The notes below the pieces were generated by a model that was not told the origin of the DNA, ran no database searches, and saw only the letters and a list, made by a program, of their open reading frames with translations. A stretch of DNA of 64,000 bases from Salipaludibacillus neizhouensis (GTDB lineage: Bacteria > Bacillota > Bacilli > Bacillales > Salisediminibacteriaceae): NCBI RefSeq assembly GCF_002886185.1, contig NZ_KZ614147.1, forward strand, positions 1,213,187-1,277,186, read 5' to 3'. The position numbers and the translations under genes are program-made. Every line of letters begins with the position of its first letter. The stretch's first letter is position 1. Shown piece by piece: positions 24,731 to 50,124 of this stretch.

Positions 24731-24840
24731 GAAAGGGGTCAGTCCCCTCCCCAGTAGCACCTACACGTAATTCATAGGTGCTACTGGGGGTGGCCGAAAG
24801 CTCACGCTGTATTTAATAAAAGACACTACGCGTTTTTCTT
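24731..24840. repeat. Structured repeat, copy A (apical hairpin plus tail)
   Basis: CCCCAGTAGCACCTA at 24749-24763 pairs with TAGGTGCTACTGGGG at 24775-24789 (15 bases). The conserved tail follows: GTGGCCGAAAGCTCACGCTG, then TATTTAATAAAAGAC and CGTTTTTCTT. The left long-stem arm of copies B-D is missing. Confidence 0.75.
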
Positions 24841-24859
24841 AGAAGATTGGAGGCTGAGT

Positions 24860-25210
24860 ATGTCAGCTATCACGGAGTTACACACAGTTACAAAGGCCCT
24901 GTACGGTCATCTGCAGCAGACGATGCCCAAGGATGAAGGGCGAGAGGAATACATTGAAGTTATTGAGAATTATCTTGGTGAACGCCAGCCTTTAATGGAT
25001 AAAGTATCTCAACCTTCAGGAGCGGAAGAAGAGTTTGCGAATGATATCGTCAAAATGAATAAAGAAATCAATTTGAAAATGGTTGCAATTCAAGCTGAAA
25101 TTAGAATGGATTTAAATCGTTTAAAAATGCGTAAACAAACGGGAAAAAAATATGAAAACCCATATGACGGACCTACATCGGATGGAATATTTTTTGATTC
25201 TAAGAAATAA
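24860..25210 (+). CDS. FliT-like flagellar chaperone
   Basis: 116 residues, all-helical, start ATG 24860 with GGAGG at 24848-24852. The N-terminal half resembles FliT of bacilli (VTKALYGHLQQTMPKDEGREEYIEVIENYLGERQPLMDKV), a chaperone that holds FliD before export. The C-terminal part is basic then ends in a flexible NPYDGPTSDGIFFDSKK tail. It lies directly after the two fliD genes, which supports the assignment, although in B. subtilis fliT follows fliS. A structured repeat separates it from fliD. Confidence 0.75.
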   Translation: MSAITELHTVTKALYGHLQQTMPKDEGREEYIEVIENYLGERQPLMDKVSQPSGAEEEFANDIVKMNKEINLKMVAIQAEIRMDLNRLKMRKQTGKKYENPYDGPTSDGIFFDSKK

Positions 25211-25254
25211 TCAGTATTAGATTCGAAGTTTTCAGTTTTTTTCTAAAAAACACT

Positions 25255-25281
25255 TCAACAGTTAGTAGAAAGTACCGATAT
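25255..25281 (+). promoter_or_regulatory. Sigma-D-like promoter upstream of flaG
   Basis: TCAA, 15 bases, ACCGATAT; two mismatches to TAAA-N15-GCCGATAT. It is 39 bases before the flaG start. Confidence 0.6.
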
Positions 25282-25319
25282 ATAAATTAGGAAATAGGTC
25301 AAGAGTAGGAGTGATACAC

Positions 25320-25709
25320 ATGGAAGTGAATTCATTGGGCCGTTTTTCCGCAAATGAAACTACCTCTCAGGTACGATCTGAGCGAAGCCCTACGCAAAAC
25401 AGGGATAGTGTGGATGCACAAGGAAGTGTCGACACGTCATCTAGGCAAGCTGAGCATGAATCTCGAGTAAAGGGAAGAGAATGGTCGGTGAAAGAGTTGG
25501 ACAGTGCGATGGAAGCGATGAATGACCTCGTTTCCGTTAAAGGTACTTCTCTTAAGTTTGAACAACATGAAACACTGAATCGCACAATGGTTAAAGTCAT
25601 TGATAAGCAAACAGAAGAAGTAGTGAGAGAAATTCCACCCGAAAAGTTTTTGGATATGATTTCTTCGATGTTAGAGTTTGCCGGAATTATTATTGATGAG
25701 AAGGTTTGA
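25320..25709 (+). CDS. flaG: FlaG-family flagellar protein (YvyC)
   Basis: 129 residues from ATG 25320; the in-frame GTG at 25311 sits on the ribosome site (TAGGAG) and is rejected. The first 60 residues are polar and probably disordered. The C-terminal FlaG domain is clear: LKFEQHETLNRTMVKVIDKQTEEVVREIPPEKFLDM. FlaG proteins influence filament length and are part of the late flagellar class. It lies between the FliT-like gene and fliS and has its own terminator and a sigma-D-like promoter. Confidence 0.92.
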   Translation: MEVNSLGRFSANETTSQVRSERSPTQNRDSVDAQGSVDTSSRQAEHESRVKGREWSVKELDSAMEAMNDLVSVKGTSLKFEQHETLNRTMVKVIDKQTEEVVREIPPEKFLDMISSMLEFAGIIIDEKV

Positions 25710-25713
25710 TGAA

Positions 25714-25755
25714 AAAACAAAAGAACTCGATTCATTTTTCGGGTTCTTTTGTTTT
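25714..25755 (+). terminator. Terminator after flaG
   Basis: AAAACAAAAGAACTCG pairs with CGGGTTCTTTTGTTTT (one T-G pair), directly after the stop codon. Confidence 0.85.
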
Positions 25756-25760
25756 ATTAT

Positions 25761-25787
25761 TAAAAATAATGGAAGACATGCCGATAA
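25761..25787 (+). promoter_or_regulatory. Sigma-D promoter of fliS
   Basis: TAAA, exactly 15 bases, GCCGATAA: 11 of 12 consensus positions for sigma-D. It is just downstream of the flaG terminator and 108 bases before fliS. Confidence 0.8.
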
Positions 25788-25895
25788 TATACATGTAAGA
25801 GCATGAGGCATTTATCCTAGGAGATTTCCACGTTCACGATAGTGAAAATGTGTGTCTGTATTCAGATAAGGGATTCATAAGGGGAGTAGATAGTA

Positions 25896-26483
25896 ATGGC
25901 AGTAAACAATCCGTACGCGAAGTATAAACAATCATCCGTGGAGACAAAGTCCGCAGGCGAATTAACGTTAATGCTTTATGATGGTTGCTTGAAGTTTATT
26001 AAACGTGCTGAAAAAGCATTGAATGAAAAAAATATGGAAGAAAAGAATACGAATTTAATGAAAGCACAAAATATTATTCGTGAATTGATGGTAACACTAA
26101 ATACAGACGTTAATGTGAGTCAGAATATGATGCAAATGTATGATTTCATTATGTCAAAGCTTATTGAAGCTAATACAGGAAATGATCTTGAAGCATTAAG
26201 TCAAGCCGAGCAATTTGTTCTGGATTTTCGAGATACGTGGAAAGAAGTCATTAAAAAAGACCGTCAGAACAGACATGGTGGCGGAACAGCTTCAACTTCA
26301 ACGGAGCCTAAAATTAAAACAAAGCCTGCAGAGAATAAGGTCACACCGATTACAAAACAGGAGGAAGCACCTGCACCAACCCCAACCCCTAATCGAAAAC
26401 CGGCTCCGAATAACCCTTATGCAGCAGCGAAACGAGCAGCAACGGCAGCTGCCGGTTCAGCAGGGACCAGTTACCGAAAATAA
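25896..26483 (+). CDS. fliS: Flagellin export chaperone FliS with an extended C-terminal tail
   Basis: 195 residues against roughly 130 usual for FliS. Residues 1-125 are standard FliS: NNPYAKYKQSSVETKSAGELTLMLYDGCLKFIKRAE, then LNTDVNVSQNMMQMYDFIMSKLIEAN. FliS binds the flagellin C-terminus and prevents early polymerisation. The extra tail is Lys/Pro/Ala-rich (TKPAENKVTPI, APAPTPTPNRKPAP) and ends in NNPYAAAKRAATAAAGSAGTSYRK, which repeats the N-terminal NNPYA motif. The N-terminal motif is involved in flagellin binding in known FliS structures, so the copy may compete with or cap it; this is inference. It has a near-consensus sigma-D promoter and its own terminator. Confidence 0.93.
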   Translation: MAVNNPYAKYKQSSVETKSAGELTLMLYDGCLKFIKRAEKALNEKNMEEKNTNLMKAQNIIRELMVTLNTDVNVSQNMMQMYDFIMSKLIEANTGNDLEALSQAEQFVLDFRDTWKEVIKKDRQNRHGGGTASTSTEPKIKTKPAENKVTPITKQEEAPAPTPTPNRKPAPNNPYAAAKRAATAAAGSAGTSYRK

Positions 26484-26506
26484 TGAATGAAAACGAACAC
26501 TCTAAG

Positions 26507-26545
26507 AAAGCAACCGGACAAGCTTGGCTTCCGGTTGCTTTTTTG
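26507..26545 (+). terminator. Terminator after fliS
   Basis: AAAGCAACCGG pairs with CCGGTTGCTTT, followed by TTTT. Confidence 0.85.
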
Positions 26546-26678
26546 TATGAGCTGCTGTTTTCGAAATCCTTATTCTTTTTGGACATCGTGCTATAATTAA
26601 ATAAAGTGTTATTTAGCCAAATATATACCACAAAAACTAATTGAGTCATTGAATGACAGAGTAAAGGAGGGATTCGTT

Positions 26679-27059
26679 ATTTCTTCTCGGCTTACGTCGG
26701 CGAAGCGGCAGTTTTTACATAATTATCTTGATATGCTTCTTGAAATAGAAAATGCGATCAAGTATGTGAGTGAATGCTATATTAAAGGTGATCATGACAT
26801 TGGTGACCGACTTCTGAAAAGTGTCACGCTAGGATTAATCCCTTATAATGAGGAAAACATGACAATGCAAGCGATTTTCAAAGAGGATTTAAATGCTTTG
26901 GCAACGTTGCATCAGTTTCAGGATGCAGTCGAAGAAGCAGCTAATATAGAAAAAATCTATCCAAATGAACAGGAACGGATGGTATTTTTACATGAAAAGC
27001 TATTACCGCGAAAACACGAGTGGACTCAGATCGTGGAAAGTTATTATAAAACACATTAG
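26679..27059 (+). CDS. Unrecognised helical protein, apparent ATT start
   Basis: About 126 residues. AAAGGAGGG at 26663-26671 is an excellent ribosome site, but the only codon at proper distance that can start is ATT 26679; TTG 26649 is in frame but lies upstream of the ribosome site. The product is mostly helical and acidic (FLHNYLDMLLEIENAIKYVSECYIKGD, LKSVTLGLIPYNEENMTMQAIF). I do not recognise the family with certainty. Position after fliS is where B. subtilis has fliT, so a flagellar accessory role is possible. It is followed 15 bases later by the esterase gene, so the two may be co-transcribed. Confidence 0.75.
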   Translation: MSSRLTSAKRQFLHNYLDMLLEIENAIKYVSECYIKGDHDIGDRLLKSVTLGLIPYNEENMTMQAIFKEDLNALATLHQFQDAVEEAANIEKIYPNEQERMVFLHEKLLPRKHEWTQIVESYYKTH

Positions 27060-27074
27060 CAAAGGGGAAAAATT

Positions 27075-28037
27075 ATGCCTTTAATTGATATGCGTTTAGA
27101 CGAATTGAAAACCTATCAAGGAAGAAATCCGCGTCCGAAAGATTTTGATGAGTATTGGAGTCGTGCCCTGCGAGAGATGAATGAAGTGGAAAGTAATGTA
27201 GAGCTGATTAAAAGTTCATTCCAGGTTGCTTATGCAGAATGTTTTGATATGTATTTTACTGGTGTTCGAGGAGCACGAATTCACGTGAAATATGTGAAAC
27301 CAAAGCTTGATACATCTAAGAAACAGCCAGCTATTCTTCACTTTCATGGCTATTCTATGAGCGCAGGGGATTGGCAAAGTAAGCTTGCGTACGCTGCACT
27401 TGGATATCATGTGTTTGCAATGGATGTCAGGGGACAAGGTGGTTTGTCTGAAGATGTAGGCGGCGTAGTTGGAAATACATTGCAAGGGCACTTTATTCGC
27501 GGTCTTGATGATCATGAGGACAACCTCTTGTTTCGTCATATTTTTTTGGATACTGCCCAGTTAGCAAAGCTTGTTATCGAAATGGATGAAGTAGATGATC
27601 GTGATGTTTCGGTAACGGGCTGGTCACAAGGTGGCGGACTGACAATTGCTTGCGCTGCACTTGAACCACGGATTAAAAAACTGGCGCCTGTGTATCCTTT
27701 CCTGAGTGATTATCAACGAGTATGGGAAATGGACTTGGCGGTAGGTGCCTATGACGAGTTGCGAAAATACTTCCGTAAGTTTGACCCCCAGCATAAACGT
27801 CAAAATGAGACTTTTGCAAAGCTTGGCTATATTGACATCCAGCATTTGGCCTCTCGAATTCAAGGAGAAGTCATGATGGGGGTGGGTCTTATGGACACAA
27901 TATGTCCTCCATCTACCCAATTTGCTGCTTACAATAAAATAACCGCACCAAAATCATTAGAGGTATTTCCTGATTTTGCTCATGAAGATTTGCCTGGACT
28001 GCATGATCGGATTATGGAGTTTATGATAGCGCGTTAG
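27075..28037 (+). CDS. Acetylxylan esterase / cephalosporin-C deacetylase (CE7 family)
   Basis: 320 residues, the usual size for CE7 alpha/beta hydrolases. Visible features: the N-terminal PKDFDEYWSRAL motif, the oxyanion region LHFHGYSMSAGDW, the CE7-specific MDVRGQGG, the nucleophile elbow GWSQGGG (Ser about 183), the Asp in GLMDTICPPSTQFAAYN and the His in DFAHEDLPG. No signal peptide, so it acts inside the cell, removing acetyl groups from imported xylo-oligosaccharides or related esters. It is 15 bases after the previous gene, with AAAGGGG before the ATG. Nearby GH13 and ManA genes fit a carbohydrate theme but not an obvious xylan operon. Confidence 0.93.
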   Translation: MPLIDMRLDELKTYQGRNPRPKDFDEYWSRALREMNEVESNVELIKSSFQVAYAECFDMYFTGVRGARIHVKYVKPKLDTSKKQPAILHFHGYSMSAGDWQSKLAYAALGYHVFAMDVRGQGGLSEDVGGVVGNTLQGHFIRGLDDHEDNLLFRHIFLDTAQLAKLVIEMDEVDDRDVSVTGWSQGGGLTIACAALEPRIKKLAPVYPFLSDYQRVWEMDLAVGAYDELRKYFRKFDPQHKRQNETFAKLGYIDIQHLASRIQGEVMMGVGLMDTICPPSTQFAAYNKITAPKSLEVFPDFAHEDLPGLHDRIMEFMIAR

Positions 28038-28203
28038 GGACACAAGTCATAAGAATACCTGTCGATTTTCCGAGAAACGAAGGAATGAAAACCACTTATT
28101 AATAACTCAACGATAGAATATTAACCTCCACTTTTATAACGAAATAAGTTATAATTTTAGAAAGGGATTTCACTATAAATCTCTCTAATTAAATAATTTA
28201 ATA

Positions 28204-28245
28204 AGGCTAGCTTCCATTCAGGCTGGAGCTAGCCTATTCGTTTTT
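28204..28245 (+). terminator. Terminator downstream of the esterase
   Basis: AGGCTAGCT pairs with AGCTAGCCT, extended by TCC/GGA, followed by ATTCG and TTTTT. It is 166 bases after the stop codon. Confidence 0.7.
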
Positions 28246-28309
28246 CTATATAATGATATCTTATCACCTTGAAAGAATAGGGTATAAGATCACACAGGGG
28301 GAATTTCAG

Positions 28310-28414
28310 ATGGCTGAGCAAGAACAGGAACAGAAGAAAAAATCATTCTTAAAAACATGGTCCACTACGATTGCGGCAATTATTTTTGTGATTATTTGGA
28401 CAATTTTGCAGTGA
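28310..28414 (+). CDS. 34-residue single-pass membrane protein
   Basis: ATG 28310 has CAGGGGGA nine bases upstream. The peptide begins MAEQEQEQKKKSFLKTW and then runs as one hydrophobic helix (TIAAIIFVIIWTILQ). A highly charged N-terminus followed by a single membrane span and almost no tail is typical of small bacillus membrane proteins. A strong terminator follows within 20 bases, which supports a real transcription unit. Function unknown. Confidence 0.7.
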   Translation: MAEQEQEQKKKSFLKTWSTTIAAIIFVIIWTILQ

Positions 28415-28433
28415 AATAGTTCAACGAAAAGAA

Positions 28434-28480
28434 ACATCCCCACCTGCGCAAAGGGGGTAAGCACAGGTGGGGATGTTATT
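28434..28480 (+). terminator. Terminator after the small membrane protein
   Basis: AACATCCCCACCTG...CAGGTGGGGATGTT, a 14-base core stem with inner GC pairs, then ATTTAT. Confidence 0.75.
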
Positions 28481-28786
28481 TATCGAATATAAGTACGAGT
28501 TAGTTTTAAATGATGTTCAAAAGGTATAGTCTTCACAGTTATAAATTTCGTTTACCGTTGCCATGTCATTCTTCACAAAGAATATGTCTCGTTTTAAGTT
28601 TCTTGGCCGTCGGAGAATTGCTCTTCTTAATCTTGAAGGAACCTCCCTTTGAACATGTTAGTTAAACGTAAGTGTTAAAAAGAAACGCTCACTAACTATA
28701 CTATGGCCAAGGTGCATTTGTTTTATACATTAAAGGAAAAGAAAAACGCAAAGTTTCTTTTATTAGAAGATAATTTATAAAATTAG
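28481..28786. other. Intergenic region without a recognised gene
   Basis: No frame with a ribosome site and no clear hairpin. It lies between the small membrane protein unit and structured repeat B. Confidence 0.4.
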
Positions 28787-28922
28787 CAGCTACCTTCACG
28801 CCGCACCTATCAAGGGAACCCATCCTCCTTTCGAGTAGCACCTACACACACTTCGTAGGTGCTACTCGGGACGGCGGAAGCTGACGCTGAATTTAATAAA
28901 AGACGGCTCTGCCGTTTTTCTT
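28787..28922. repeat. Structured repeat, copy B (full length)
   Basis: Left arm CAGC-TACCTTC-A-CGCCG, apical stem CGAGTAGCACCTAC/GTAGGTGCTACTCG (28832-28845 with 28855-28868), right arm CGGCG-GAAG-...-GCTG, then the tail TTTAATAAAAGACGGC with a small hairpin ACGGC/GCCGT and T run. The end of the element overlaps the stop codon of the minus-strand amylase gene. Confidence 0.85.
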
Positions 28923-30693
28923 ATTGATCTTTTAAAATTATTGCGCTTACCGCCTTAACTTCCACAGTGATTTCCCCTTTTAAAACTTGATATTTTTCAT
29001 CTGTATCAATATTTCGAAACGTTCCCGCGGAGATGTTTTCAAGTGTCACCTTTTGCTTTTGATTATCACTGTTTAAGATAATAATGAAACGATCCATCAC
29101 ATCGGTTCGCTCATAGGCTATTATTTTTTTGTCTTTTTCAGCTGACAGAAAACGGAAGGTACCGTCTTTTAAAGAGCGATGGTCTTTTCTAAGCTGAATC
29201 ATTTTTTTATAAAAGGCAAGAATGTCCAGGTCTTGGTGTTCTTTCTCCCAAATCATCGGTTTTCTGCAACCTGGGTCTGCCCCACCTGCCATACCAATCT
29301 CATCACCGTAATAAATACATGGCGCCCCACTATAGGTAAGTTGGAACAACACAGCGAGCTTCATTCGAGCCTTATTCCCTTCTGCAATCGTAAGCAATCG
29401 CGGTGTATCATGGGAATCTAATAAATTAAAGGCAACCTCATTTGCTTGTTTCGGATAGGCAATTTGCATCGCATCGAGTCTACCCATAAAAGATGCCGCA
29501 TCAATCTCATCCTTCACAAAAAAGTCGAGAATACTATTTGTCACCGGATAGTTCATCACAGCATCGAACTGATCTCCCACCAGCCAGGCCATTGAATTGT
29601 GCCAGGTCTCACCGAGTATATACGCCTCCGGATTTGCTTTCTTTACGGTATGACGGAATTCACGCCAAAATTGATGGTCAATTTCATTAGCTACATCTAA
29701 ACGCCAGCCGTCAACCCCAATATCTTCCACCCAATAACGGGCTACTTCCAATAAATATGCTTTCACTTCCGGATGCTCCGTGTCTAATTTAGGCATTTCC
29801 GGAACGAAACCGAATGTATCGTAATTTAATGGATTAGTGGAGACTGGGAAACTTTTAATATGGAACCATTCTTTAAAACGTGATTTTTCTCCGTTTAGTA
29901 AGACGTCCTGAAAAGGAGGGAAGTAATAGCCTGAATGATTGAAAACGGCATCCAACATAATTTTTATTCCTTTTCTATGTGCTTCTTTTACTAGTTTCTT
30001 AGCAGTATTATTGTCACCAAATTGTGGATCAACTTTTAAATAATCGATCGTATCGTATTTGTGATTGGAATGTGCTTCGAAAAATGGCGTGAAATAAATA
30101 CATGTGATTCCTAAGTCTACTAAATAATCAAGATTATCAATGACACCTTGTAAATCTCCGCCGAAAAAATTAGTTGCTGTTGGCACAGCATCAGGTGTCC
30201 ATGCTTCCACTTCTTTAGGACTAATGGAAGGATCCCCATTTGCAAACCGCTCAGGAAAAATCTGATAAAATACAGCATCTTTCACCCAGTCGGGAGTAGA
30301 ATGAACGTCGATAGGGTTTAAATACGGGAATTCAAACATGCCTGAAGGTGACCAAAGCATGCCGACTCCGGAAGAGCTTAGTTTATCCTTTGTAAAGCCC
30401 ACTTCGTTTAAAAAAACAGTTTGATCCTCTGTTTCAAATTTAAAAGCATAAGCAAATCGGCGAAACGGAGGTTTTATAGCAACGTGATAATAATCAAATA
30501 AATCATCTTGTGCAAAAACCACCATTCTTGTAGTGGTCACTTTTTCAGGAGAAAAGTCATACTTGTCTCCCCATACTACTGATACACGATCCATATCATG
30601 TCGCTTCGTGCGAACACGAATATGTAAAGTTTCTTCATTATAGGCATAGGCGTACTGAGATTTAGGTTGGTGATAAATGGCTTCCAGTAACAT
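28921..30693 (-). CDS. Neopullulanase / cyclomaltodextrinase-type GH13 alpha-glycosidase
   Basis: 590 residues, the usual size for GH13_20 enzymes. An N-terminal CBM34-type beta domain (about 1-125) precedes the (beta/alpha)8 barrel: DAVFNHSGYYF (region I), GWRLDVANEID (region II, nucleophile Asp about 328), ILGETWHN (acid/base Glu) and LLDSHDTPR (region IV). No signal peptide, so it works in the cytoplasm on maltodextrins, cyclodextrins or pullulan fragments that have been imported. A LacI/MalR-type operator lies about 110 bases upstream. No malto-oligosaccharide transporter is adjacent. The 3' end abuts structured repeat B. Confidence 0.93.
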   Translation of the reverse strand: MLLEAIYHQPKSQYAYAYNEETLHIRVRTKRHDMDRVSVVWGDKYDFSPEKVTTTRMVVFAQDDLFDYYHVAIKPPFRRFAYAFKFETEDQTVFLNEVGFTKDKLSSSGVGMLWSPSGMFEFPYLNPIDVHSTPDWVKDAVFYQIFPERFANGDPSISPKEVEAWTPDAVPTATNFFGGDLQGVIDNLDYLVDLGITCIYFTPFFEAHSNHKYDTIDYLKVDPQFGDNNTAKKLVKEAHRKGIKIMLDAVFNHSGYYFPPFQDVLLNGEKSRFKEWFHIKSFPVSTNPLNYDTFGFVPEMPKLDTEHPEVKAYLLEVARYWVEDIGVDGWRLDVANEIDHQFWREFRHTVKKANPEAYILGETWHNSMAWLVGDQFDAVMNYPVTNSILDFFVKDEIDAASFMGRLDAMQIAYPKQANEVAFNLLDSHDTPRLLTIAEGNKARMKLAVLFQLTYSGAPCIYYGDEIGMAGGADPGCRKPMIWEKEHQDLDILAFYKKMIQLRKDHRSLKDGTFRFLSAEKDKKIIAYERTDVMDRFIIILNSDNQKQKVTLENISAGTFRNIDTDEKYQVLKGEITVEVKAVSAIILKDQ

Positions 30694-30801
30694 GTTATTC
30701 CTCCTAGTGATTCTAAGTGTAAACCTTCAACATGAACAAGGATTGAATCAATGAATGGTTACAGGTAAACTGAAATAAGAACAGTATGAACATTCAATAA
30801 G

Positions 30802-30815
30802 CGCAATCGTTTGCA
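30802..30815 (-). promoter_or_regulatory. MalR/LacI-type operator upstream of the GH13 gene
   Basis: CGCAATCGTTTGCA, an imperfect palindrome like the maltose-operon operator CGCAAACGTTTGCG of Firmicutes. It lies 109 bases before the start of the GH13 gene on its 5' side. A maltose-responsive LacI-family repressor or CcpA could bind it. Confidence 0.6.
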
Positions 30816-30979
30816 CTAAAAGCCAATAGATTAGAGCTATTGCTAGAAAAAGTATAGCATGGTGTATGTAAACGTGTCCAATATAATACTGAGGATTCTT
30901 ATTGCTGTAACTCCATGAAGATAAGACTATACTGTTTACTTGCTGCGAAGATATAAATTATAGAGAGGGCGTAATAACG

Positions 30980-31939
30980 ATGAAAGATATTTTAAAATTG
31001 GAACCGGTATTGAAAGAAAAAGTATGGGGTGGAAAGAAGCTGAAAGAGTGTTACGGATATGATATTCCCAGTAACCAAACAGGGGAGTGTTGGGGGATTT
31101 CTGGACATGAAAATGGCACAAATATTGTAAGTGAGGGATCATATGCTGGAAAAACAGTTCGTGAACTATGGGAGAACCACCGGGAATTATTTAATCATGA
31201 ACAGGGGGACGAGTTTCCACTACTAGTAAAAATTATTGATGCGCAGGATGATCTGTCAGTGCAGGTTCACCCTGATGACCAATATGCTTTGAAGCATGAA
31301 GGCTATGCCTTTGGAAAGACGGAGTGTTGGTATATTCTTGATCGGGAGCCTGGTGCAAAGCTGATACTGGGTCATGGAGCCTCTACTAGAGATGAGCTGA
31401 GTAACATGGTTGAGGATAAAAGATGGGATGATCTCTTTAACAGTGTGGAAGTAGAACCGGGAGATTTTGTCTATGTACCAAGTGGAACCGTTCATGCCAT
31501 TGGAAGCGGCGTGTTAATACTTGAGATTCAACAAAGTTCTGATATTACGTATCGTTTTTATGATTATGATCGACCTGGCCAAGATGGCCAAATGAGGGAG
31601 TTACATATTGAGGATTCTATTGCGTGTTCCATGGTACCTCATAAGGATGCAACACCTGCTAGACCTGCTTGGGAAGAAGACGGTTTGAAAATTGAAAGAC
31701 TTATACAAGAGAACTATTTCACCGTACACAAATGGGTGTTGGAGAAACGGTCTGGTGCGTTAAAACGAGCGAACATGTCGTATCAATTAGTGAGTGTTAT
31801 TGAAGGTGGCGGTCAAATTCAAACAGAGGAAGCGGCTCATTTACTGAAAAAAGGAGACCACTTTATTATCCCTTCCACCGTTCAGCACTATGAAATTAGT
31901 GGAGATATAACAGTAGTAGTCTCAGAAACAACGAAATAA
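30980..31939 (+). CDS. manA: Mannose-6-phosphate isomerase, class I
   Basis: 319 residues, as for bacillus ManA/Pmi enzymes. Cupin-fold zinc site residues are visible in QVHPDDQYA (Gln, His), KTECWYIL (Glu) and GTVHAIGSG (His), plus the YRFYDYDRPGQDG segment of the active site. It interconverts mannose 6-phosphate and fructose 6-phosphate in the cytoplasm. It is divergent from the GH13 gene and has no mannose PTS genes beside it. AGAGAGGG precedes ATG 30980. Confidence 0.95.
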   Translation: MKDILKLEPVLKEKVWGGKKLKECYGYDIPSNQTGECWGISGHENGTNIVSEGSYAGKTVRELWENHRELFNHEQGDEFPLLVKIIDAQDDLSVQVHPDDQYALKHEGYAFGKTECWYILDREPGAKLILGHGASTRDELSNMVEDKRWDDLFNSVEVEPGDFVYVPSGTVHAIGSGVLILEIQQSSDITYRFYDYDRPGQDGQMRELHIEDSIACSMVPHKDATPARPAWEEDGLKIERLIQENYFTVHKWVLEKRSGALKRANMSYQLVSVIEGGGQIQTEEAAHLLKKGDHFIIPSTVQHYEISGDITVVVSETTK

Positions 31940-32037
31940 TTTGGTTTTAGGAGCCCTTGATCCTAGCATCAGTTTGAACGGAGAGATGCGATCCGAGGAC
32001 GGCAAATAAGTAATTAAAAGATAGGGAATTTTAAGAT

Positions 32038-32149
32038 GACAGCTACCTTCGTGCCGCGCGCAGCAAGGGAAAACCACCCTTGCTACTTAAATGATGGCGG
32101 CAGAAGCTGACGCTGAATTTAATAAAAGACGGCTATGCCGTTTTTCTTA
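32038..32149. repeat. Structured repeat, copy C (different apical hairpin)
   Basis: Left arm ACAGC-TACCTTC-GTGCCGC and right arm GCGGCA-GAAG-...-GCTG pair as in copies B and D. The apical stem is replaced by AGCAAGGG/CCCTTGCT (32062-32069 with 32077-32084). Tail AAAGACGGCTATGCCGTTTTTCTT. Confidence 0.85.
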
Positions 32150-32170
32150 AAAGTTAAGAAAGTATAAGAT

Positions 32171-32306
32171 GACAGCTATCTTTACGCCACGCGTGTCAAG
32201 GAAAACCATCCCCCTTTCGAGTAGCACCTACACGCACTTCGTAGGTGCTACTCGGGGTGGCGAAAGATAACGCTGTATTTAACAAAAGACGCTTTGCGTT
32301 TTTCTT
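32171..32306. repeat. Structured repeat, copy D (best-paired)
   Basis: ACAGC-TATCTTT-A-CGCCAC (32172-32190) pairs with GTGGCG-AAAGATA-AC-GCTGT (32257-32276), 18 pairs with small bulges. Apical stem CGAGTAGCACCTAC/GTAGGTGCTACTCG. Tail hairpin ACGC-TTT-GCGT and T run. It lies in tandem with copy C and next to the stop of the minus-strand gene at 32310. Confidence 0.85.
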
Positions 32307-32309
32307 ATT

Positions 32310-32558
32310 TTATTTATACTGTAGCGATTGATTATCTAAAATGGATCGAAGCAATACATCATCTGAATTCATGTTTTCTATGTGTCTGATATCAAGATTA
32401 ACTTTAAGTTCCTGTAAAGTGTCTTGTATATGTTTGAGGTTTTCCTGTTGATCAAATAAGCATTCATTTAATTCATCTAAGTCGTCACGCTTTATTGTGG
32501 CAGCTTCTATTTTTGCTAATTTGTGCATAACCATTTTAAGCAAATCCATTTCATTCAT
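32310..32558 (-). CDS. Small coiled-coil protein downstream of ssbB
   Basis: 82 residues, charged and predicted as an almost continuous coiled coil (IEAATIKRDDLDELNECLFDQQENLKHIQDTLQELKVNLD). Start ATG 32558 with AAAGGAG ahead. It lies 32 bases after the ssb gene on the same strand, so the two are probably co-transcribed. I do not recognise a named family; no catalytic motif, signal peptide or membrane segment. Confidence 0.7.
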   Translation of the reverse strand: MNEMDLLKMVMHKLAKIEAATIKRDDLDELNECLFDQQENLKHIQDTLQELKVNLDIRHIENMNSDDVLLRSILDNQSLQYK

Positions 32559-32590
32559 TCAGGTTGTCTCCTTTCGTCATTTCATTTAGA

Positions 32591-34985: not shown

Positions 34986-35047
34986 CTTCGAACAGAAGAG
35001 CCCGAATCCGTTCTAGGCGAATTCGAGTACCTCTGTTCGAAGTAAAA
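34986..35047. repeat. GAGTACCTC repeat, copy 1
   Basis: Bounded by the perfect inverted ends TTCGAACAGA (34986-34995) and TCTGTTCGAA (35031-35040). Contains GAATTCGAGTACCTCTG and ends in GAAGTAAAAC. Related copies at 38314-38388 and, inverted, at 59307-59346. Confidence 0.7.
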
Positions 35048-35053
35048 CAATAA

Positions 35054-38313: not shown

Positions 38314-38388
38314 TTGCCGCTCGCTTTTCGCGGTGACCCCAAAGTCTCAGCGCCCCTGAATCGGAGTACCTCCGCTCGAAGTAAAACT
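38314..38388. repeat. GAGTACCTC repeat, copy 2
   Basis: GCCGCTCGCTTTTCGCGG at the left, GAATCGGAGTACCTCCGCTCGAAGTAAAAC at the right end (two pieces shared with the copy at 34986). Resembles dispersed GC-rich repeats of Bacillaceae with CGCTCGCTTTCCGCGG cores. Confidence 0.6.
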
Positions 38389-42487: not shown

Positions 42488-42515
42488 ACGATTATTACGA
42501 TTAATTCATAAAAGG

Positions 42516-42559: not shown

Positions 42560-42572
42560 ATTAGGTAAAGTA

Positions 42573-42660
42573 GACAGCTTCCTTTTCGCCACACGTGTTA
42601 AGGGAAAACCAGCCTGCACTTGCACGAAATTACGGAAAGCGAGCGGTAATTCTTCCAAAC
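42573..42660. repeat. Structured repeat, copy E (left arm only) fused to a second repeat fragment
   Basis: GACAGCTTCCTTTTCGCCAC then ACGTGTTAAGGGAAAACCA match the left arm of copies B-D. The right part (CGGAAAGCGAGCGGTAATT) instead resembles the GCTCGC core of the repeat at 38314 in inverse orientation. It looks like a decayed or composite copy. Confidence 0.55.
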
Positions 42661-42819: not shown

Positions 42820-42898
42820 CTGAAAGGATTAAGAGATCAGATGGCAGATTATGGCTTGTGTGTTATGTACATATTGTTTTAGAAAAAAGGTGATAATA

Positions 42899-43795: not shown

Positions 43796-43853
43796 AACGG
43801 TTATAATATCTAAGTAGGTTTGATAATCTTACCAAAATTTAAGGAGGGATTTT

Positions 43854-44195: not shown

Positions 44196-44292
44196 TTAGT
44201 TATAGTAAAGTATGTTGTCTTGAGAGTTCAATATATCACTCTAATTCTCCATCTGAAAATATGATTAAAACCTGAAATTTAATTTTTGAGAA

Positions 44293-44335
44293 GGGTGCTG
44301 AAAAGTAAGTTTTTACTTTTCAGCACCCCCTTTTG
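44293..44335 (+). terminator. Terminator of cccB
   Basis: GGGTGCTGAAAAGTAA pairs perfectly with its complement (16 bases) around GTTT, followed by CCTTTT. Confidence 0.9.
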
Positions 44336-44703
44336 CGTGGTTCGATTTTGTAATTTATGTCAGATTATAAAAAAATTAGACTTAATGCTTGAAACTTTAT
44401 GCCTATCTCCAATAGACTTATGCTAATTTTTCTTTCTACTTCGATAGTTTTCGACAATTGGTTTGTAACAATTGAAATATAATTGTAAAGAAGTTTAACT
44501 TTAAATGACGTAAATTGATGCTATAATAAAAACGTAGAAATAGATTGTCGAAATATGATATAGTTTGCAAAACCATATTTCAATTACCTTAAATATGAAT
44601 TTTTTAGAAGATATTGCATTCATGACTACATAACAATGGGACTTGTAGTCTTCATTTATGTCTTTTTTATTAACTACGATAAATATACTAGGAAGTGATG
44701 GGA
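44336..44703. promoter_or_regulatory. ftsE leader region with extended -10 promoter
   Basis: A gap of about 370 bases, AT-rich, without a gene. TGC-TATAAT at 44519-44527 is a strong extended -10 element about 177 bases before ftsE; its -35 is poor. Nothing else stands out. Confidence 0.5.
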
Positions 44704-45390
44704 TTGATCCAAATGCAGGACGTGTGGAAAACCTATCCAAACGGCGTAATGGCTGTTAATGGGATTTCTATATATATCAAAAAGGGAGAGTTTGTTTATG
44801 TGGTGGGCCCCAGTGGTGCGGGGAAATCTACTTTTATTAAAATGATGTTTCGTGAGGAAAAACCAACACGGGGTGAGATATCTATTGATGGGAAAAATCT
44901 ATCAAAGATTAAAGAAAGACATATCCCGTATTTACGGAGAAATATGGGAGTAGTTTTCCAAGATTTTAAGCTATTACCATCTTTAACGGTCTTTGAAAAT
45001 GTATCATTTGCTATGGAAGTTATTGAGGAAAGTAAAGCGAATATAAAAAAACGTGTCATGGAAGTATTAGACGTCGTTCGTTTAAAAAATAAAGCAAGAT
45101 TTTTACCTCATGAGCTTTCAGGTGGAGAACAACAGCGTGTTGCGATCGCAAGAGCGATTGTTAATAATCCATCCGTACTTATAGCGGACGAGCCTACAGG
45201 GAATTTGGATCCGGAAACTTCTTGGGAAATTATGCGCATTTTGGAAGAGATTAATGACCGGGGAACTACGATAATTATGGCAACACATAATAGAGATATA
45301 GTTGATAGCATGCGAAAGAGAGTAATTGCTATTGAAAATGGTCGAATCTCCCGAGATGAAGCAAGGGGGATGTACGGGTATGAGAGCTAG
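44704..45390 (+). CDS. ftsE: Cell-division ABC transporter ATPase FtsE
   Basis: 228 residues from TTG 44704 (MIQMQDVWKTYPNGV, matching the B. subtilis N-terminus); AGGA at 44690-44693 suits this better than GTG 44695 or ATG 44698. Walker A GPSGAGKST, Q-loop VVFQDFKLL, signature ELSGGEQQRVAIARA, Walker B VLIADEPTGNLD and H-loop ATHNRD are all present. With FtsX it drives, through ATP hydrolysis, an extracellular peptidoglycan hydrolase at elongation and division sites. It overlaps ftsX by 11 bases. The next gene after ftsX encodes a possible target hydrolase. Confidence 0.96.
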   Translation: MIQMQDVWKTYPNGVMAVNGISIYIKKGEFVYVVGPSGAGKSTFIKMMFREEKPTRGEISIDGKNLSKIKERHIPYLRRNMGVVFQDFKLLPSLTVFENVSFAMEVIEESKANIKKRVMEVLDVVRLKNKARFLPHELSGGEQQRVAIARAIVNNPSVLIADEPTGNLDPETSWEIMRILEEINDRGTTIIMATHNRDIVDSMRKRVIAIENGRISRDEARGMYGYES

Positions 45391-46273
45391 AACAGTTGGC
45401 CGCCATATAAATGAAGGCGGTAAAAATATAATTCGTAATGGCTGGATGACATTTGCTTCTGTCAGTGCGGTTACGGTTACGTTATTAGTAGTTGGTGCAT
45501 TCTTGCTGCTGATTATGAACTTAAACCATTTTGCTGATTCATTGGAAGATGATGTTGAAATCAGAGTATTCGTCGAACTTACTACTTCAGAAACGGAACA
45601 GGAAAACTTAAATACAAATCTCGAAGACTTTGAAACTATCGATTCTGTAGAATATATACCCAAAGATGAGGGGTTAGAAACATTCATAGATAGTTTAGGT
45701 GAACAAGGCGACTATTTTAAAGGACTTCGGGATGAAAATCCATTGAATGATGTATATGTTGTTCATGCAGAGAATCCGGAAGATACAGAAGTTATTGTTG
45801 AAGAAATTGAATCTTTAGAGCATGTAGAAGGTGTAGAATATGGTCGGGATATTTTTGACCAACTCTTCACGGCAACGGATTTTATTCGAATTATAGGTGT
45901 GGTATTAATCGGTGGTTTGTCATTCACGGCCATTTTTCTTATAGCTAACACGATAAAACTAACCATTGTGGCTAGAAAGAATGAAATTCAGATTATGAAA
46001 CTTGTAGGAGCAACAAACGGCTTTATCCGATGGCCTTTCTTTATAGAAGGTCTTCTACTAGGTACATTTGGCTCAATTATTCCTATTGCGCTATTGTGGT
46101 TTGGTTATGTCCAATTTTATGAAATGATTGGGGAAAGCACCGGACTGGACTTCTTTGAATTTTTGCCTACTTATCCATTAGTTATTCAAAATGCCATTTT
46201 ACTCTTAGGTATTGGGGCAATTGTTGGAGTTTGGGGAAGTGTCATGAGTGTTAGGAAGTTCTTGAAAGTATAA
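45380..46273 (+). CDS. ftsX: Cell-division ABC transporter permease FtsX
   Basis: 297 residues from ATG 45380 (GGGGG at 45365-45369), overlapping ftsE by 11 bases. One N-terminal membrane helix (FASVSAVTVTLLVVGAFLLLIM), an extracellular domain of about 120 residues, and three C-terminal helices with the MacB-like FtsX motif (NTIKLTIVARKNEIQIMKLVGATNGFIRWPF). It is the transmembrane partner of FtsE and passes the ATPase cycle to an outside hydrolase. The extracellular loop is strongly acidic. Confidence 0.96.
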   Translation: MRARTVGRHINEGGKNIIRNGWMTFASVSAVTVTLLVVGAFLLLIMNLNHFADSLEDDVEIRVFVELTTSETEQENLNTNLEDFETIDSVEYIPKDEGLETFIDSLGEQGDYFKGLRDENPLNDVYVVHAENPEDTEVIVEEIESLEHVEGVEYGRDIFDQLFTATDFIRIIGVVLIGGLSFTAIFLIANTIKLTIVARKNEIQIMKLVGATNGFIRWPFFIEGLLLGTFGSIIPIALLWFGYVQFYEMIGESTGLDFFEFLPTYPLVIQNAILLLGIGAIVGVWGSVMSVRKFLKV

Positions 46274-46279
46274 AAAAGA

Positions 46280-46317
46280 GGAGTTCTCAAAGGTCTTTAT
46301 CAACCTTTCGGGACTCC
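46280..46317 (+). terminator. Hairpin after ftsX
   Basis: GGAGTTCTCAAAGG pairs with CCTTTCGGGACTCC with one mismatch; only a short T stretch follows. Probably a partial terminator between ftsX and the M23 gene. Confidence 0.5.
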
Positions 46318-46384
46318 TTAATAGAAAACTGACTATTTCCTAGGAAATAAAACATATATCGCCAATTTTAAAGGGAGGGTCATT

Positions 46385-47881
46385 ATGACTCGTAAACTAG
46401 CATTGTTTTTTATAGCAACAATACTGGCTTTAACTACATTAATAGATTTGATACATATTAAATCAGTTTCAGCTAACACAGGAGAAGAATTAGAAGAAAA
46501 TATAGAAGAATATAAAAATCAACAAGGTGCTAAAGAAGAAGCAGCAGAACAAACGGAAGAAGAGTTACAAGAAGTAGAAGCAGAGATGAATGGCGTGGCT
46601 GAAGAAATTCATCAGTTGGACGATGAAATGCTGACGACTAATCAAAGTATTGATGATAAACAAGAAGAAATTGATGCAACAAATGCACGAATCGAGGAAT
46701 TACGTGAAGAAATAACAGTTCTTGAAGAACGCATTGCAGAGAGAGATGAAATTCTAAAAGAACGTGTGAAGTTTATGTATCAAAACGGTGGTTCAATAGA
46801 ATACATAGATGTGATTTTAGGGGCACAAGGTTTTGGAGATTTGCTAGAACGGATTTCCGCTCTTAATTCAATTGCTGAATCCGATCGAAATATTCTTGAA
46901 CAACATATTGAAGATATGCAAGCAGTGGAAAAAGCTAAAGAGGATTTGGAATCTGAGCTTTCAAGTTTAGAAGAACAAATGGCTGATTTAGAAGATTTAA
47001 AACAAGGGTTGGAAGATAAAATTGATCAGAAAGATGTGTTATTGGAACAACTTACTGAGCAAGGTTATTCGTTAGAAGATAACCTATTAAATTTAGAAGA
47101 AGAGAAACAGTTTTTGGCGGCTCAAGAAGAAGCGGCAAAACAAGAACTAGCGGCATGGGAAGAAGAGCAACGAAGATTAGAGGAAGAGCGTCGTAAGAAA
47201 GAAGAGGAAGAAAGACGCCAGCGTGAGGCAGAGGAACAGAGACAAGCGGAAGAAGCGGCAAGAGAAGCAGAAGAACGTGCTGCTGCTGAAGAAGCGAAAA
47301 AAGAAGAAGCAAAACAAGCTGAAGCTAGTACCTCAACGAGTTCATCTTCGTCAAGTAGCTCAGACAATTCTGACTCTAGCAGTTCAAATAATTCTAACAG
47401 TAGTTCAGGTAGTTCACCTTCAAGCTCAGAAACTAATACTACTACAACAGAAGCATCGAGTGGAGGTTCTGCTACGCTTCACCGACCAGCTAGTGGTAGA
47501 GTAACATCGGGGTACAATCCTAATAGAGTTCATCCTGTAACAGGGAAAGTCAGATCGCACAATGGAATTGACTATGGACGCGATGGTGGTACAGGTATTT
47601 ACGCAGCTGAGGCAGGTACAGTTATCTCAGCTGGCAGAATGAATGGATATGGTAATACGATTACTATTTCACATGTTGTAAATGGAAAAAGCATTACGAC
47701 GCTTTATGCACATTTAGCTTCAATGAATGTGTCACCAGGTCAGCGTGTAAGCCGAGGTCAAACGATTGCAGTAATGGGCACGACAGGAGTTTCAACAGGA
47801 GTTCACTTGCATTTTGAAGTACACCCTGGAGGTTATGCGGGCTCATCATCATCTGTAAACCCTTCAAGTTATCTCCCGTAA
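46385..47881 (+). CDS. Coiled-coil M23 peptidoglycan hydrolase next to ftsEX
   Basis: 498 residues: signal peptide (about 1-31, ending VSANT), a long coiled coil (about 32-300; EELEENIEEYKNQ..., PcsB/CwlO-like), a Glu/Arg/Ala helix, a Ser-rich linker (about 312-360), and a C-terminal M23 LytM domain with metal ligands in HNGIDYG (about 392) and HLHFEVH (about 475). All zinc ligands are visible, so it should be active. FtsX-activated hydrolases have exactly this coil-plus-catalytic layout; in B. subtilis the partner is CwlO with an NlpC/P60 domain encoded elsewhere. Its place right after ftsEX suggests it is the FtsEX-activated enzyme here; this is inference. Confidence 0.92.
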   Translation: MTRKLALFFIATILALTTLIDLIHIKSVSANTGEELEENIEEYKNQQGAKEEAAEQTEEELQEVEAEMNGVAEEIHQLDDEMLTTNQSIDDKQEEIDATNARIEELREEITVLEERIAERDEILKERVKFMYQNGGSIEYIDVILGAQGFGDLLERISALNSIAESDRNILEQHIEDMQAVEKAKEDLESELSSLEEQMADLEDLKQGLEDKIDQKDVLLEQLTEQGYSLEDNLLNLEEEKQFLAAQEEAAKQELAAWEEEQRRLEEERRKKEEEERRQREAEEQRQAEEAAREAEERAAAEEAKKEEAKQAEASTSTSSSSSSSSDNSDSSSSNNSNSSSGSSPSSSETNTTTTEASSGGSATLHRPASGRVTSGYNPNRVHPVTGKVRSHNGIDYGRDGGTGIYAAEAGTVISAGRMNGYGNTITISHVVNGKSITTLYAHLASMNVSPGQRVSRGQTIAVMGTTGVSTGVHLHFEVHPGGYAGSSSSVNPSSYLP

Positions 47882-47910
47882 AAAAGATGGATTAATAATT
47901 AATTGAATGA

Positions 47911-47956
47911 AGAAGAGTGTCCTTATATATACTATATTGGACCTCTTCTTTTTTTT
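47911..47956 (+). terminator. Terminator of the M23 gene
   Basis: AGAAGAG-T-GTCC pairs with GGAC-C-TCTTCT, followed by a run of T. Confidence 0.8.
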
Positions 47957-48035
47957 GCATCAAAGAAGAAATTCAAAATGTCGATAAATTCCGCAGATTA
48001 CCATTTTATATAAAAGTAGTAAAAGAGATGGAACT

Positions 48036-48064
48036 TTCAAATCTATGGCTAACTCTGTTATGAT
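48036..48064 (+). promoter_or_regulatory. Probable promoter of ctpB
   Basis: TTCAAA, 17 bases, TATGAT preceded by TGT (extended -10); 65 bases before the start. Confidence 0.5.
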
Positions 48065-48128
48065 GGAAATAGTGAAAAAAGTTATACGATGGATGACTCC
48101 ATTTAAATTGTGACAAAGAGGTGAGAGT

Positions 48129-49613
48129 ATGAACAAAAATAATATTATCATCCCCCTAATCGTATTTTTTTCTTTAGTTTTGGGAGCTGGAGGAATGTAT
48201 GTAGCGATGGGGCCTATGAATGATGATAATGGTTCAATGGAAATGGAGCAAGACGAAGTAGCGCAGCTCATTAACGGTGGCGAGACGGAAGAAGTTCTTG
48301 GCAACGTAGATGATGACGAAGAAATGGCTAAAATACAGCAAGCTATAGATATGATCACGGACAAGTATGTAGACGAAGTGGATGAATCCAAGCTGGTTGA
48401 GGGTGCGATTACGGGAATGCTTGAAACGTTAGAGGATCCATACTCCGTATACATGGATGAATCAACCGCTGAGGAGTTCATGAATTCTTTGGATTCTACG
48501 TTTGAAGGCATTGGTGCTGAAGTAAGTATGACAGATGGCCGTGTTACAATTGTAGCCCCATTTAGAGATTCACCGGCAGAAAACGCAGGATTAAGACCAA
48601 ATGATAAAATTCTTGTGATTGATGGAGAAGATACAGATGGTTTGTCACTTTATGATGCTGTCCTTAAAATCCGCGGGGAAAAAGGATCCACTGTTACGCT
48701 GACAATTGAACGCCCGGGAGTTAACGATCCAATTGATCTGGACGTTGTCCGCGATGAAATTCCTATTGAAACAGTTTACAGTGAAATCATAGAGGAAGAT
48801 GGAAAGTCAATAGGTGTTATAGAATTAAGTTCATTTGCTGAAAAAACAGCGACTGAGTTTGAAGAACAATTAAAAGAACTTGAAGATAGTAATATTGATG
48901 GTTTAATTATTGACGTTAGAGGTAACCCAGGCGGACTCCTTCAAGTCGTTGAGGAAATAGGCAGTCTGATTATTCCGGAAGGCGAGCCTATCGTTCAAAT
49001 TGAGGATCAAGAAGGCGAGCGCATGAGACAGTTATCGAATCTTGACGGGAAAAAAGAATATCCGATTGTTGCTCTTACGGATGAAGGCAGTGCTTCAGCA
49101 TCGGAAATTCTTGCCGGTGCATTAAAAGAAGCAGGCGGTTATGAAGTTGTTGGTACAAATACCTTTGGAAAAGGCACCGTACAACAAACTTTACGTATGG
49201 TTGATGGAAGCGAAATTAAGCTGACATTGTTCCGATGGTTAACTTCAGATGGAAATAATATAAATGAAGTGGGCGTAGAACCGACCATTAAGGTTGAGCA
49301 ACCAGACTTCTACTATGCTACTCCATTGGATTTTGAAGAGCCGCTTACTTATGATATGTCTAATGAACATATAAAAAATGCACAAATTATGTTGGCGGGT
49401 ATAAGTGAATTTGACCCTGGCAGAACGGATGGCTACTTTGATGAAGAAACAGAAGAAGCCGTTAGAGGATTCCAAGAACAAGAGGGTCTCGAGGTAACTG
49501 GAGAAATCAATGAAGAAACGGGAACTCGTTTACAAGAGAAAGTTATTGAAGCGATCCAAGGAAAAGAATATGATTTGCAGCTTGATCGTGCGATTGAAGT
49601 TATCGTAGAATAA
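48129..49613 (+). CDS. ctpB: Carboxy-terminal processing protease, S41 family
   Basis: 494 residues. One N-terminal membrane anchor (IIIPLIVFFSLVLGAGGMYVA), then an acidic segment, a PDZ domain (about 130-215: IGAEVSMTDGRVTIVAPFRDSPAENAGL), the S41 core with the Ser-Lys dyad (Ser323 in TDEGSASASEI, Lys348 in NTFGKGTVQQ, 25 apart as in the family) and a C-terminal peptidoglycan-binding domain (about 410-475). B. subtilis CtpB acts in the SpoIVFB sporulation checkpoint. The gene order ftsX-ctpB-minJ is conserved, apart from the M23 gene inserted between. Confidence 0.94.
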   Translation: MNKNNIIIPLIVFFSLVLGAGGMYVAMGPMNDDNGSMEMEQDEVAQLINGGETEEVLGNVDDDEEMAKIQQAIDMITDKYVDEVDESKLVEGAITGMLETLEDPYSVYMDESTAEEFMNSLDSTFEGIGAEVSMTDGRVTIVAPFRDSPAENAGLRPNDKILVIDGEDTDGLSLYDAVLKIRGEKGSTVTLTIERPGVNDPIDLDVVRDEIPIETVYSEIIEEDGKSIGVIELSSFAEKTATEFEEQLKELEDSNIDGLIIDVRGNPGGLLQVVEEIGSLIIPEGEPIVQIEDQEGERMRQLSNLDGKKEYPIVALTDEGSASASEILAGALKEAGGYEVVGTNTFGKGTVQQTLRMVDGSEIKLTLFRWLTSDGNNINEVGVEPTIKVEQPDFYYATPLDFEEPLTYDMSNEHIKNAQIMLAGISEFDPGRTDGYFDEETEEAVRGFQEQEGLEVTGEINEETGTRLQEKVIEAIQGKEYDLQLDRAIEVIVE

Positions 49614-49632
49614 CCAGGATCTAGTACTTTCC

Positions 49633-49670
49633 GATTGAAAAAGAGAATTCTCTTTTTCAATCTTTTTTTT
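49633..49670 (+). terminator. Terminator of ctpB
   Basis: A perfect 15-base palindromic stem (GATTGAAAAAGAGAA with complement) and a run of eight T. Confidence 0.92.
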
Positions 49671-50124
49671 GTTGCTTTTAAATAGGAGAAGTTCGTGTCC
49701 ACTCAAGACAGCCTACCGAGCTAAAAGGAAGGATGGGGGTGGGATATGGAAATAATGGGGTAATTCTTATAAAAATAAATTGAAGTGAAAAATAAGGTGA
49801 CATTCAAGTGATTAGTGTCCGGTTGAAAGGAGCTATCTCATGTGTTTAACGACACTAGGTGCACATCTTCTCCTACGAGTGTAGCTTTTTCAGCGGTTAG
49901 TGACATTTGAGGGCGGTTTTTTGGTAAGTTTAGATTTAACTTTTTCGATAAAGTTTCTTAGAAGTTCTTATTGTTTAAAAGTTAGTGGAGAAACTGACGA
50001 TGCATTTAATAAAAGAAGGGGATTGCCGCTTTTATTAAAAAATCACTTTTCTTTTCTGATAATTCATTTACAATGAAAGGAAGAGGTTATGAATAGTAGA
50101 TCGATGGGTTGAGGAGGGTTTCTC
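49671..50124. other. Intergenic region with degenerate structured repeat, copy F
   Basis: Contains the tail GACGATGCATTTAATAAAAG followed by GATTGCCGCTTTT at 49997-50035, matching the end of copies B-D. Further left, GTTGAAAGGAGCTA near 49822 can pair with TAGCTTTTTCAGC near 49884, so a decayed or divergent element may span 49820-50040. No gene is seen. Confidence 0.5.

Follow-up and report, generated by a model that had tools for sequence, protein, structure and literature searches.

Copies of the repeat in the window and on the chromosome

The window analysed here, a stretch of 64,000 nucleotides from Salipaludibacillus neizhouensis (contig NZ_KZ614147.1, called C2 below, positions 1,213,187 to 1,277,186), carries on its forward strand six full or partial copies, A to F, of a hairpin-forming repeat, which is the subject of the present analysis. 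An initial annotation had described them as a dispersed structured repeat with paired stems and a swappable apical hairpin, and copies A to D were found again at the positions that it gave. Copies are called D-type or C-type, and two covariance models were used for their identification, R1 (built from 28 D-type copies) and R2 (C-type). Copy A (24738-24841) lies in the fliD gap, downstream of a gene identified as FliD by Pfam. It is a D-type copy, truncated at its 5' end, that retains the apical hairpin, the 3' stem arm and the tail terminator; it is matched by the profile over model positions 56-158 and by the covariance model over window positions 24703-24841. Copy B (28768-28923; covariance model match C2:1241954-1242109) is a full D-type copy with a GCCGC/GCGGC-type stem. 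The stop codon of a convergent amylase gene (28921-30693, minus strand; end of the open reading frame (ORF), Pfam) lies within its CTTA end, and an inverted tail-like fragment just upstream of it (28739-28765, minus strand) is 89% complementary to the tails of copies A and D. Copy C (32022-32149; R2 match C2:1245208-1245335, E 7.2e-28) is of the C-type, with an apical hairpin formed by 32062-32069 and 32077-32084. Directly behind its tail, in tandem, follows copy D (32155-32307; R1 match C2:1245341-1245493, E 5.7e-38), a full D-type copy with an apical hairpin at 32218-32254 that resembles repetitive extragenic palindromes (REPs), GTAGCACCTAC at 32221 and GTAGGTGCTAC at 32241. The terminal palindrome of D, as seen in the fold (32280-32307), contains the CTTA that forms the right boundary of the element and is likely a two-way intrinsic terminator. 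The stem pairs CGCCG/CGGCG (B), TGCCGC/GCGGCA (C) and CGCCAC/GTGGCG (D) and the tail pairs ACGGC/GCCGT or ACGC/GCGT are present as originally described. Copies E and F are indeed derived from the repeat, but only in part: E (42565-42621; profile E 8.9e-10), placed behind a hairpin and T-run downstream of prfB (the upstream gene matches PCRF/RF-1 in Pfam), comprises the 5' half only, and F (49985-50036) is a tail-like relic, 63% to the reference tail, that shows three mismatches from a 21-nt tail pattern (judged by eye) and gave no match with the profiles at E 1e-3. The possibility that E and F form the two ends of one large transposon was rejected because the six intervening proteins scanned resemble housekeeping genes (Pfam); they are separate truncated copies.

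The repeat family far exceeds the window, with about 260 copies on the chromosome. Scanning the 5.5 Mb genome with an 18-nt left pattern (at most 2 mismatches) and with the 21-nt tail pattern (at most 3 mismatches) yielded 234 and 262 matches, respectively, versus 0 for each pattern written backward, which excludes a chance origin of the repeat. BLAST of copies C and D against the same genome gave 46 matches with 40 of the 370 candidates scored. All 150 candidates scored with R1, out of 2335, are matches, and R1 and R2 together scored 190 distinct copies.

Boundaries, folding and apical modules

Among the loci fetched from the host genome (loci are numbered L, other genomes G), 138 copies were located, and 129 of these could be anchored at both ends, the other 9 being dropped. 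The element is about 126-155 bp long; it starts near AAGATAAGAAWKTATAAG, continues as a long imperfect hairpin and ends in a palindrome, ...TAATAAAAGACGC-GCGTTTTTCTTA. Analysis of the 129 anchored copies reveals a sharp right boundary, ...CGTTTTTCTTA, where CTTA is conserved at 86-96% per base and beyond which no base exceeds 48%. On the left side a T-run at positions -28 to -22 (57-77% T) is followed by a loosely conserved, A-rich end. The left TAAGAA and the right TTCTTA are inverted copies of each other. As to palindromes near the ends, the one at the right end is clear in the fold, and the left end has one only if the long internal hairpin is counted.

The predicted RNA folds of copies B, D and C have z-scores of -8.0, -7.4 and -3.5, respectively, relative to shuffled sequence. 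The covariation initially noted for the stems reaches significance when subfamilies and species are compared, but the D-type copies among themselves show no significant excess. In an alignment of 26 C-type copies, 12 of 35 pairs are changed on both sides, a number reached by 0 of 500 shuffles, and the structure is 93% paired versus 39-49% for slid structures. A second alignment comprised 41 copies from three genomes (21 C-type copies of the host, 19 of G041 and one of G008; four rows of the first C-type alignment and 8 of the 27 located G041 rows were omitted). Here the covariation score was 0.159 versus 0.098 after shuffling (0/500), and 9 pairs were changed on both sides versus 6.0 (21/500). 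For the 28 D-type copies alone covariation did not rise above that of shuffled alignments, 112 of 500 of which reached the score. One stem pair of the host copies, scorable on both sides in 88 of the 129, reads A-T in 67, G-C in 17, G-T in 3 and A-C in 1.

The apical hairpin is swappable, as had been proposed: when stem type and apex type were assigned to the 129 copies, all four combinations were found (45, 27, 22 and 13 copies, with 22 unclassified on one or both), so that apex and stem must have been exchanged or the apex gained more than once. This shows that the apical part is a module assorting independently of the stem. The arms of the D-type apex are GTAGCACCTAC and GTAGGTGCTAC. The same two 11-mers occur, in opposite order, in arrays with a spacing of 91 bp at L143 and L134, the first of which adjoins a gene for a 202-aa Y1 transposase, and the pair is found singly, again in the order opposite to that of the D-type apex, at L279 and L291. 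From these sequence matches we read the D-type apex as a probable REP-derived module and the gene at L143 as RAYT-like (REP-associated tyrosine transposase), both labels being our own. The likeness is to the GTAG REPs accompanied by RAYT genes (PMC3733652; here and below, published reports are cited for statements in excerpts of their text), in that the D-type apex shares its sequence with the palindromes of an array next to a Y1 transposase gene. A GTAG-tagged palindrome fits the D-type apical module only. The element differs from GTAG REPs in that its C-type copies lack the GTAG hairpin, in the arm order of the D-type, which is reversed relative to the arrays, and in being a unit of 126-155 bp with boundaries of its own. 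The D-type apical stem is conserved at 97.8% versus 87.5% for the rest of the core (91 copies), a difference that is partly due to the existence of two stem subfamilies.

Distribution, insertion sites and orientation

A search with R2, in which at most 58 candidates of each genome were scored, identified matches in 8 of 60 genomes, the host included: at least 58 in the host, at least 58 in G041, which belongs to a different genus, 17 in G017, 6 in G028, 3 in G010, 2 each in G008 and G048, and a single weak one in G050. R1 matched 2 of 40 genomes, again including the host. An order-level scan found the element in at least 4 of 299 genomes, the host among them, a figure to be taken as a weak lower bound, with 11 candidates scored per genome and the R2-positive G028 missed. 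None of the seven same-genus genomes has a match among the candidates scored with R1 and R2. No match was obtained in 72,556 plasmid records or in a phage collection, and Rfam contains no family matching the whole window at the gathering threshold or window positions 28700-32350 at E 1. A description of the repeat was not found in the open-access literature searched, which is not proof that none exists; the element is apparently undescribed in the literature and databases that could be searched.

Copies in G017, G028, G010, G048, G075 and G084 have differing interiors, with a similar left end or terminal palindrome as judged by eye. Folds of stretches from G017, G028, G075 and G010 reveal a long stem, an inner hairpin and, on the 3' side, an internal loop without pairing, together with the terminal palindrome where the stretch extends that far. 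The copies examined in G041, G017 and G028 lie mostly behind T-runs (by eye). One copy of G008 (L148, 225-370) has a wholly different long tail hairpin inside the same AAAAGAC...GTCTTTCTTA frame. In G041 one and the same small internal deletion is common to several copies (L353, L354, L362, L363), suggesting that forms carrying a deletion can still multiply. An S10 ribosomal protein leader (RF03136) was observed in G028 (L385, 623-726), where it closely follows, on the downstream side, a copy of the related element.

In the host, a T-run of at least four residues is present upstream of 108 of the 129 anchored copies, versus 37, 37 and 34 of 129 in three control stretches, and a hairpin closing beside the T-run is present in 41, versus 5, 2 and 6. 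The target preference is one-sided, with the T-run on the left and no consensus on the right. Fourteen of the 129 copies have the tail of another copy directly upstream (tandem nesting). At the sites of A, B, C/D and E the element is absent from the same-genus genomes G005 and G007, both by eye and by profile at E 10. At site A these two relatives have a plain terminator-like hairpin and a T-run before the ribosome-binding region of the next gene, and in the host it is the CTTA end of the element that occupies the place ahead of this region. We regard the mobility of the element as well supported.

The orientation of the copies was analyzed with respect to genes, using mechanical ORF calls, and to replication. 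Among the 127 copies with usable flanks (2 were dropped), the left neighbouring gene is co-directional in 101, and 45 lie between convergent genes; in 42 of 62 cases the end of the element is 0-11 nt from the stop codon of the opposing gene. Replichores were assigned from the GC skew of the flanks in 300-kb bins, with switch points chosen after the strand pattern was seen; on this basis 140 of 163 placed copies of the full list are in leading-strand sense (86%; 27 copies unplaced), as are 99 of 116 placed copies with flank data. Within convergent gaps, for which gene direction by itself predicts no bias, 35 of 43 copies are in leading-strand sense (p 4e-5), which indicates that orientation tracks replication beyond gene direction. 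The corresponding numbers for copies with both neighbours opposing (7 vs 4) and in divergent gaps (6 vs 2) are not significant. On the main contig of G041, 54 of 57 copies (95%) fit two switch points near 0.80 and 3.0 Mb, which were taken from the copies themselves; the GC skew at 20 loci flips sign with these points, except at one locus, and at two more it is near zero. These data bear on an alternative according to which the repeat is a functional RNA or a terminator cassette under selection, for stability of the 3' untranslated region or for termination, spread by recombination rather than transposition. The covariation, the stable folds and the frequent contact of the element end with an opposing stop codon would be in line with such a role, but the lack of a match in all seven same-genus genomes, the tandem nesting and an orientation that follows replication beyond gene direction argue against it, and we consider it improbable. 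Two traits of the element are unusual among non-autonomous hairpin elements, namely the preference for positions behind terminators and the orientation with replication at 86-95%.

Candidate routes of movement and known relatives

Our leading interpretation, which we hold tentatively and at somewhat less than even confidence, is that the repeat represents a family of small non-autonomous, terminator-carrying mobile elements that nest behind terminators and are moved as a single strand by an HUH enzyme. The moving form would be the top strand, single and folded while it is exposed on the lagging-strand template; an HUH transposase acting in trans, presumably of the IS200/IS605 or RAYT type, would join it to the 3' side of a T-run. 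The terminal palindrome would terminate in both directions, making an insertion between convergent genes nearly harmless, and each insertion would provide a further target, which would account for the tandem nesting. With regard to orientation, IS200/IS605 elements are described in a review as favouring the lagging-strand template and as being oriented in keeping with replication (PMC5371812). Of the three possibilities offered by the initial annotation, a miniature inverted-repeat transposable element (MITE), a terminator cassette or an RNA family, the data favour none in pure form, but a mobile element carrying a terminator-like palindrome, with no RNA family in Rfam corresponding to it.

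The main result against a Y1 mechanism comes from the junctions. Among the 102 copies whose CTTA end is intact, no more than 3 have flanks that match over 4 bp or more at any left offset, and the mean longest flank match is slightly above that of permutations (1.73 vs 1.46, sd 0.16). A finer test was carried out on 72 host copies with a well-kept left end, re-anchored on the GATAAGAA motif. In 20 of them the 2 nt before AGATAAGAA equal the 2 nt after CTTA, with 5.3 expected and 0 of 300 permutations reaching this number; the class is one of five, among 81 tested, that no permutation reached. Removal of 11 tandem-flagged copies leaves 17 of 61 (4.5 expected), and the excess of identity extends over three adjacent positions (+11.5, +17.5 and +7.5 copies). 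The match is no stronger in better-scoring copies (6, 7 and 7 of 24) and did not show up in the 19 G041 copies that were usable (8 rows dropped). It may reflect a 2-3 bp target duplication in part of the copies. To our knowledge, Y1 elements should make no such duplication, and the junction match therefore weakens the HUH interpretation and strengthens its main rival, a MITE moved by a terminator-favouring, perhaps clamp-binding DDE transposase, with terminal inverted repeats TAAGAAA/TTTCTTA and a partly eroded duplication of 2-3 bp. This rival would account for the 2-nt match and its three-position diagonal as well as for the inverted ends, and the replication-linked orientation is compatible with it too, since the same review reports similar biases for several other IS families with clamp-binding transposases (PMC5371812), a point that takes weight from the orientation as an argument for an HUH enzyme. 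On the other hand, the target is one-sided, the conservation of the left end is loose and unlike that of a cut inverted repeat, the junction match neither strengthens in better-scoring copies nor appears in those of G041, and no matching transposase was found in a search that covered Y1 and RVT_1 only. Relevant to the MITE label in its narrow sense are the short inverted TAAGAA ends, the one-sided target, the absence of a prominent duplication of 4 bp or more and the 2-nt match, present in 20 of 72 copies. All in all we consider the clamp-guided DDE route rather unlikely, though a serious contender, and favour the single-strand route.

Movement by an HUH enzyme has further findings to contend with. 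No clear T-run is present in 21 of the 129 copies, nor directly upstream of copy C, and only 41 have a clear hairpin by the criterion used. At site A the hairpin of the relatives is unrecognisable upstream of the truncated copy, and owing to intergenic divergence a base-exact empty site is unreadable in the relatives. Pairing between the left end of a copy and its own target is no better than pairing with the targets of other copies (6.35 vs 6.27), a negative test of the idea that it guides target choice by pairing. The search for the mobilising enzyme, aimed at the Y1 and RVT_1 families, revealed no transposase-encoding copy of the element among the Y1 loci; Y1_Tnp is present in 7 of 7 element-bearing genomes tested and also in 8 of 11 without detected elements, and the RAYT-like proteins of the host and G041 show no special similarity. 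Profiles around the Y1 loci of the host (L141-L147) gave nothing better than E 0.35, and hence no shared ends, and the flanks of 16 Y1 loci of other genomes, read by eye, revealed no autonomous partner.

Group IIC introns also insert behind terminators. It is conceivable that the element is retro-copied, in that a reverse transcriptase of the group IIC intron type, or a similar one, would place a short terminator-ended RNA at such sites; the ragged left end and sharp right end would agree with this, irregular short duplications would suit target-primed copying, and the host genome has 9 RVT_1 matches. However, RVT_1, which occurs in 5 of the 7 genomes with the element and in 4 of 9 other genomes, has no match in G028 or in G041 with its at least 58 copies, which disfavours a group II reverse transcriptase as the mobiliser, and the window contains no Rfam group II intron match; we regard this route as quite unlikely. 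Rolling-circle transposition as in IS91 or Helitrons, a different HUH route, has the one-sided target and the hairpin at the 3' end among its features, both of which the element displays. Tandem nesting is explicable by target preference alone, no search aimed at such transposases was made, and we judge this route very improbable.

Some other repeats and Y1 loci were observed in the course of this search. A second palindromic repeat, of the TTCGAACAGAGGTACTCGAATTCGC type, occurs in the window at 34986-35049, 38358-38387 and 59306-59338; it is also present at about 1085-1135 of L141, beside a second Y1 transposase gene (267 aa), and in L027, after position 1650, stands directly behind a copy of the element. 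Beside the Y1 gene of L141 (about 1045-1075) a lone left-end-like sequence without recognisable element body lies behind a terminator, perhaps a decayed copy. Some IS200-type genes (L202, L214 and L203, from G006 and G017) also start shortly behind terminator-like sequences. A 30-nt repeat around GGGACGGTTCTCTGCTTCCT, with four copies in the window (11907-11936, 13340-13369, 13862-13891 and 15258-15287), is unlike the element by eye.

Comparison with known systems places the element closest in description to several families without identifying it with any of them. PATEs, the palindrome-associated IS605-type elements, are likewise short, transposase-less, heterogeneous in sequence and present in many copies; they have near-terminal palindromes, of which the element clearly shows the one at the right end, and are said in the excerpts cited to cause no target duplications (PMC3119063, PMC7290912). 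The element resembles an IS200/IS605 PATE in target side, folding and orientation, the last trait not being exclusive to this family, and differs in the lack of related IS605 ends among the loci searched, the preference for sites behind terminators, the terminator-like palindrome of its own, the exchange of apical modules and the short junction match. Assignment to the PATEs was withheld because no ends are shared with a Y1-coding element. Among the repeats of Streptococcus pneumoniae (PMC3049150), BOX has a similarly modular internal part (boxB), and SPRITE, a terminator-like repeat, is located close to gene ends and in convergent gaps. Their leading-strand share is given as 60.8-63.3%, versus 86% and 95% here, the comparison being one of description. 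The bcr1 repeat of the Bacillus cereus group is likewise structured and scattered between genes, has a similar length and shows features of mobility (PMC6542083, PMC3446304), for which a TTTAT motif is reported; copies on plasmids are reported as well (PMC6542083). A known bcr family had been named at the outset as a possible explanation, and identity with bcr1 was dropped, the host lying outside the B. cereus group and the 72,556 plasmid records giving no match, which is a partial test of that explanation. The host was placed near Salipaludibacillus and Evansella by a flanking gene, whose closest counterparts, at 76% identity, are in Salipaludibacillus keqinensis and S. daqingensis. Bhal-1 of Bacillus halodurans, a related alkaliphile, is a stem-loop repeat of 74 bp with 36 copies (PMC2267715), likened here by description only; a relation to the element is possible.

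On a wider scale, the element may belong to a superfamily of replication-coupled elements, distributed over at least five genera of one bacterial order. Its members would have unrelated interiors and yet be built alike, with a left end of the TAAGAA type, then a long hairpin that leaves a 3' internal loop unpaired, and a terminator palindrome at the end. Such elements would use terminators as landing pads, bring in a fresh terminator as payload and exchange apical parts with REP/RAYT systems. We consider this extension possible, but doubtful.

In the genome of S. neizhouensis, about 260 copies amount to one terminator-like hairpin about every 21 kb, a density at which 3' ends, read-through and pairs of convergent genes might be remodelled genome-wide. 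The leading-strand bias (86% and 95%), which goes beyond local gene direction in convergent gaps, provides a natural test of replication-coupled transposition, and the REP-like hairpin exchanged into another element represents a visible step in the formation of composite repeats. If the superfamily reading is true, these repeats would constitute a class of bacterial elements that redistribute terminators within genomes.

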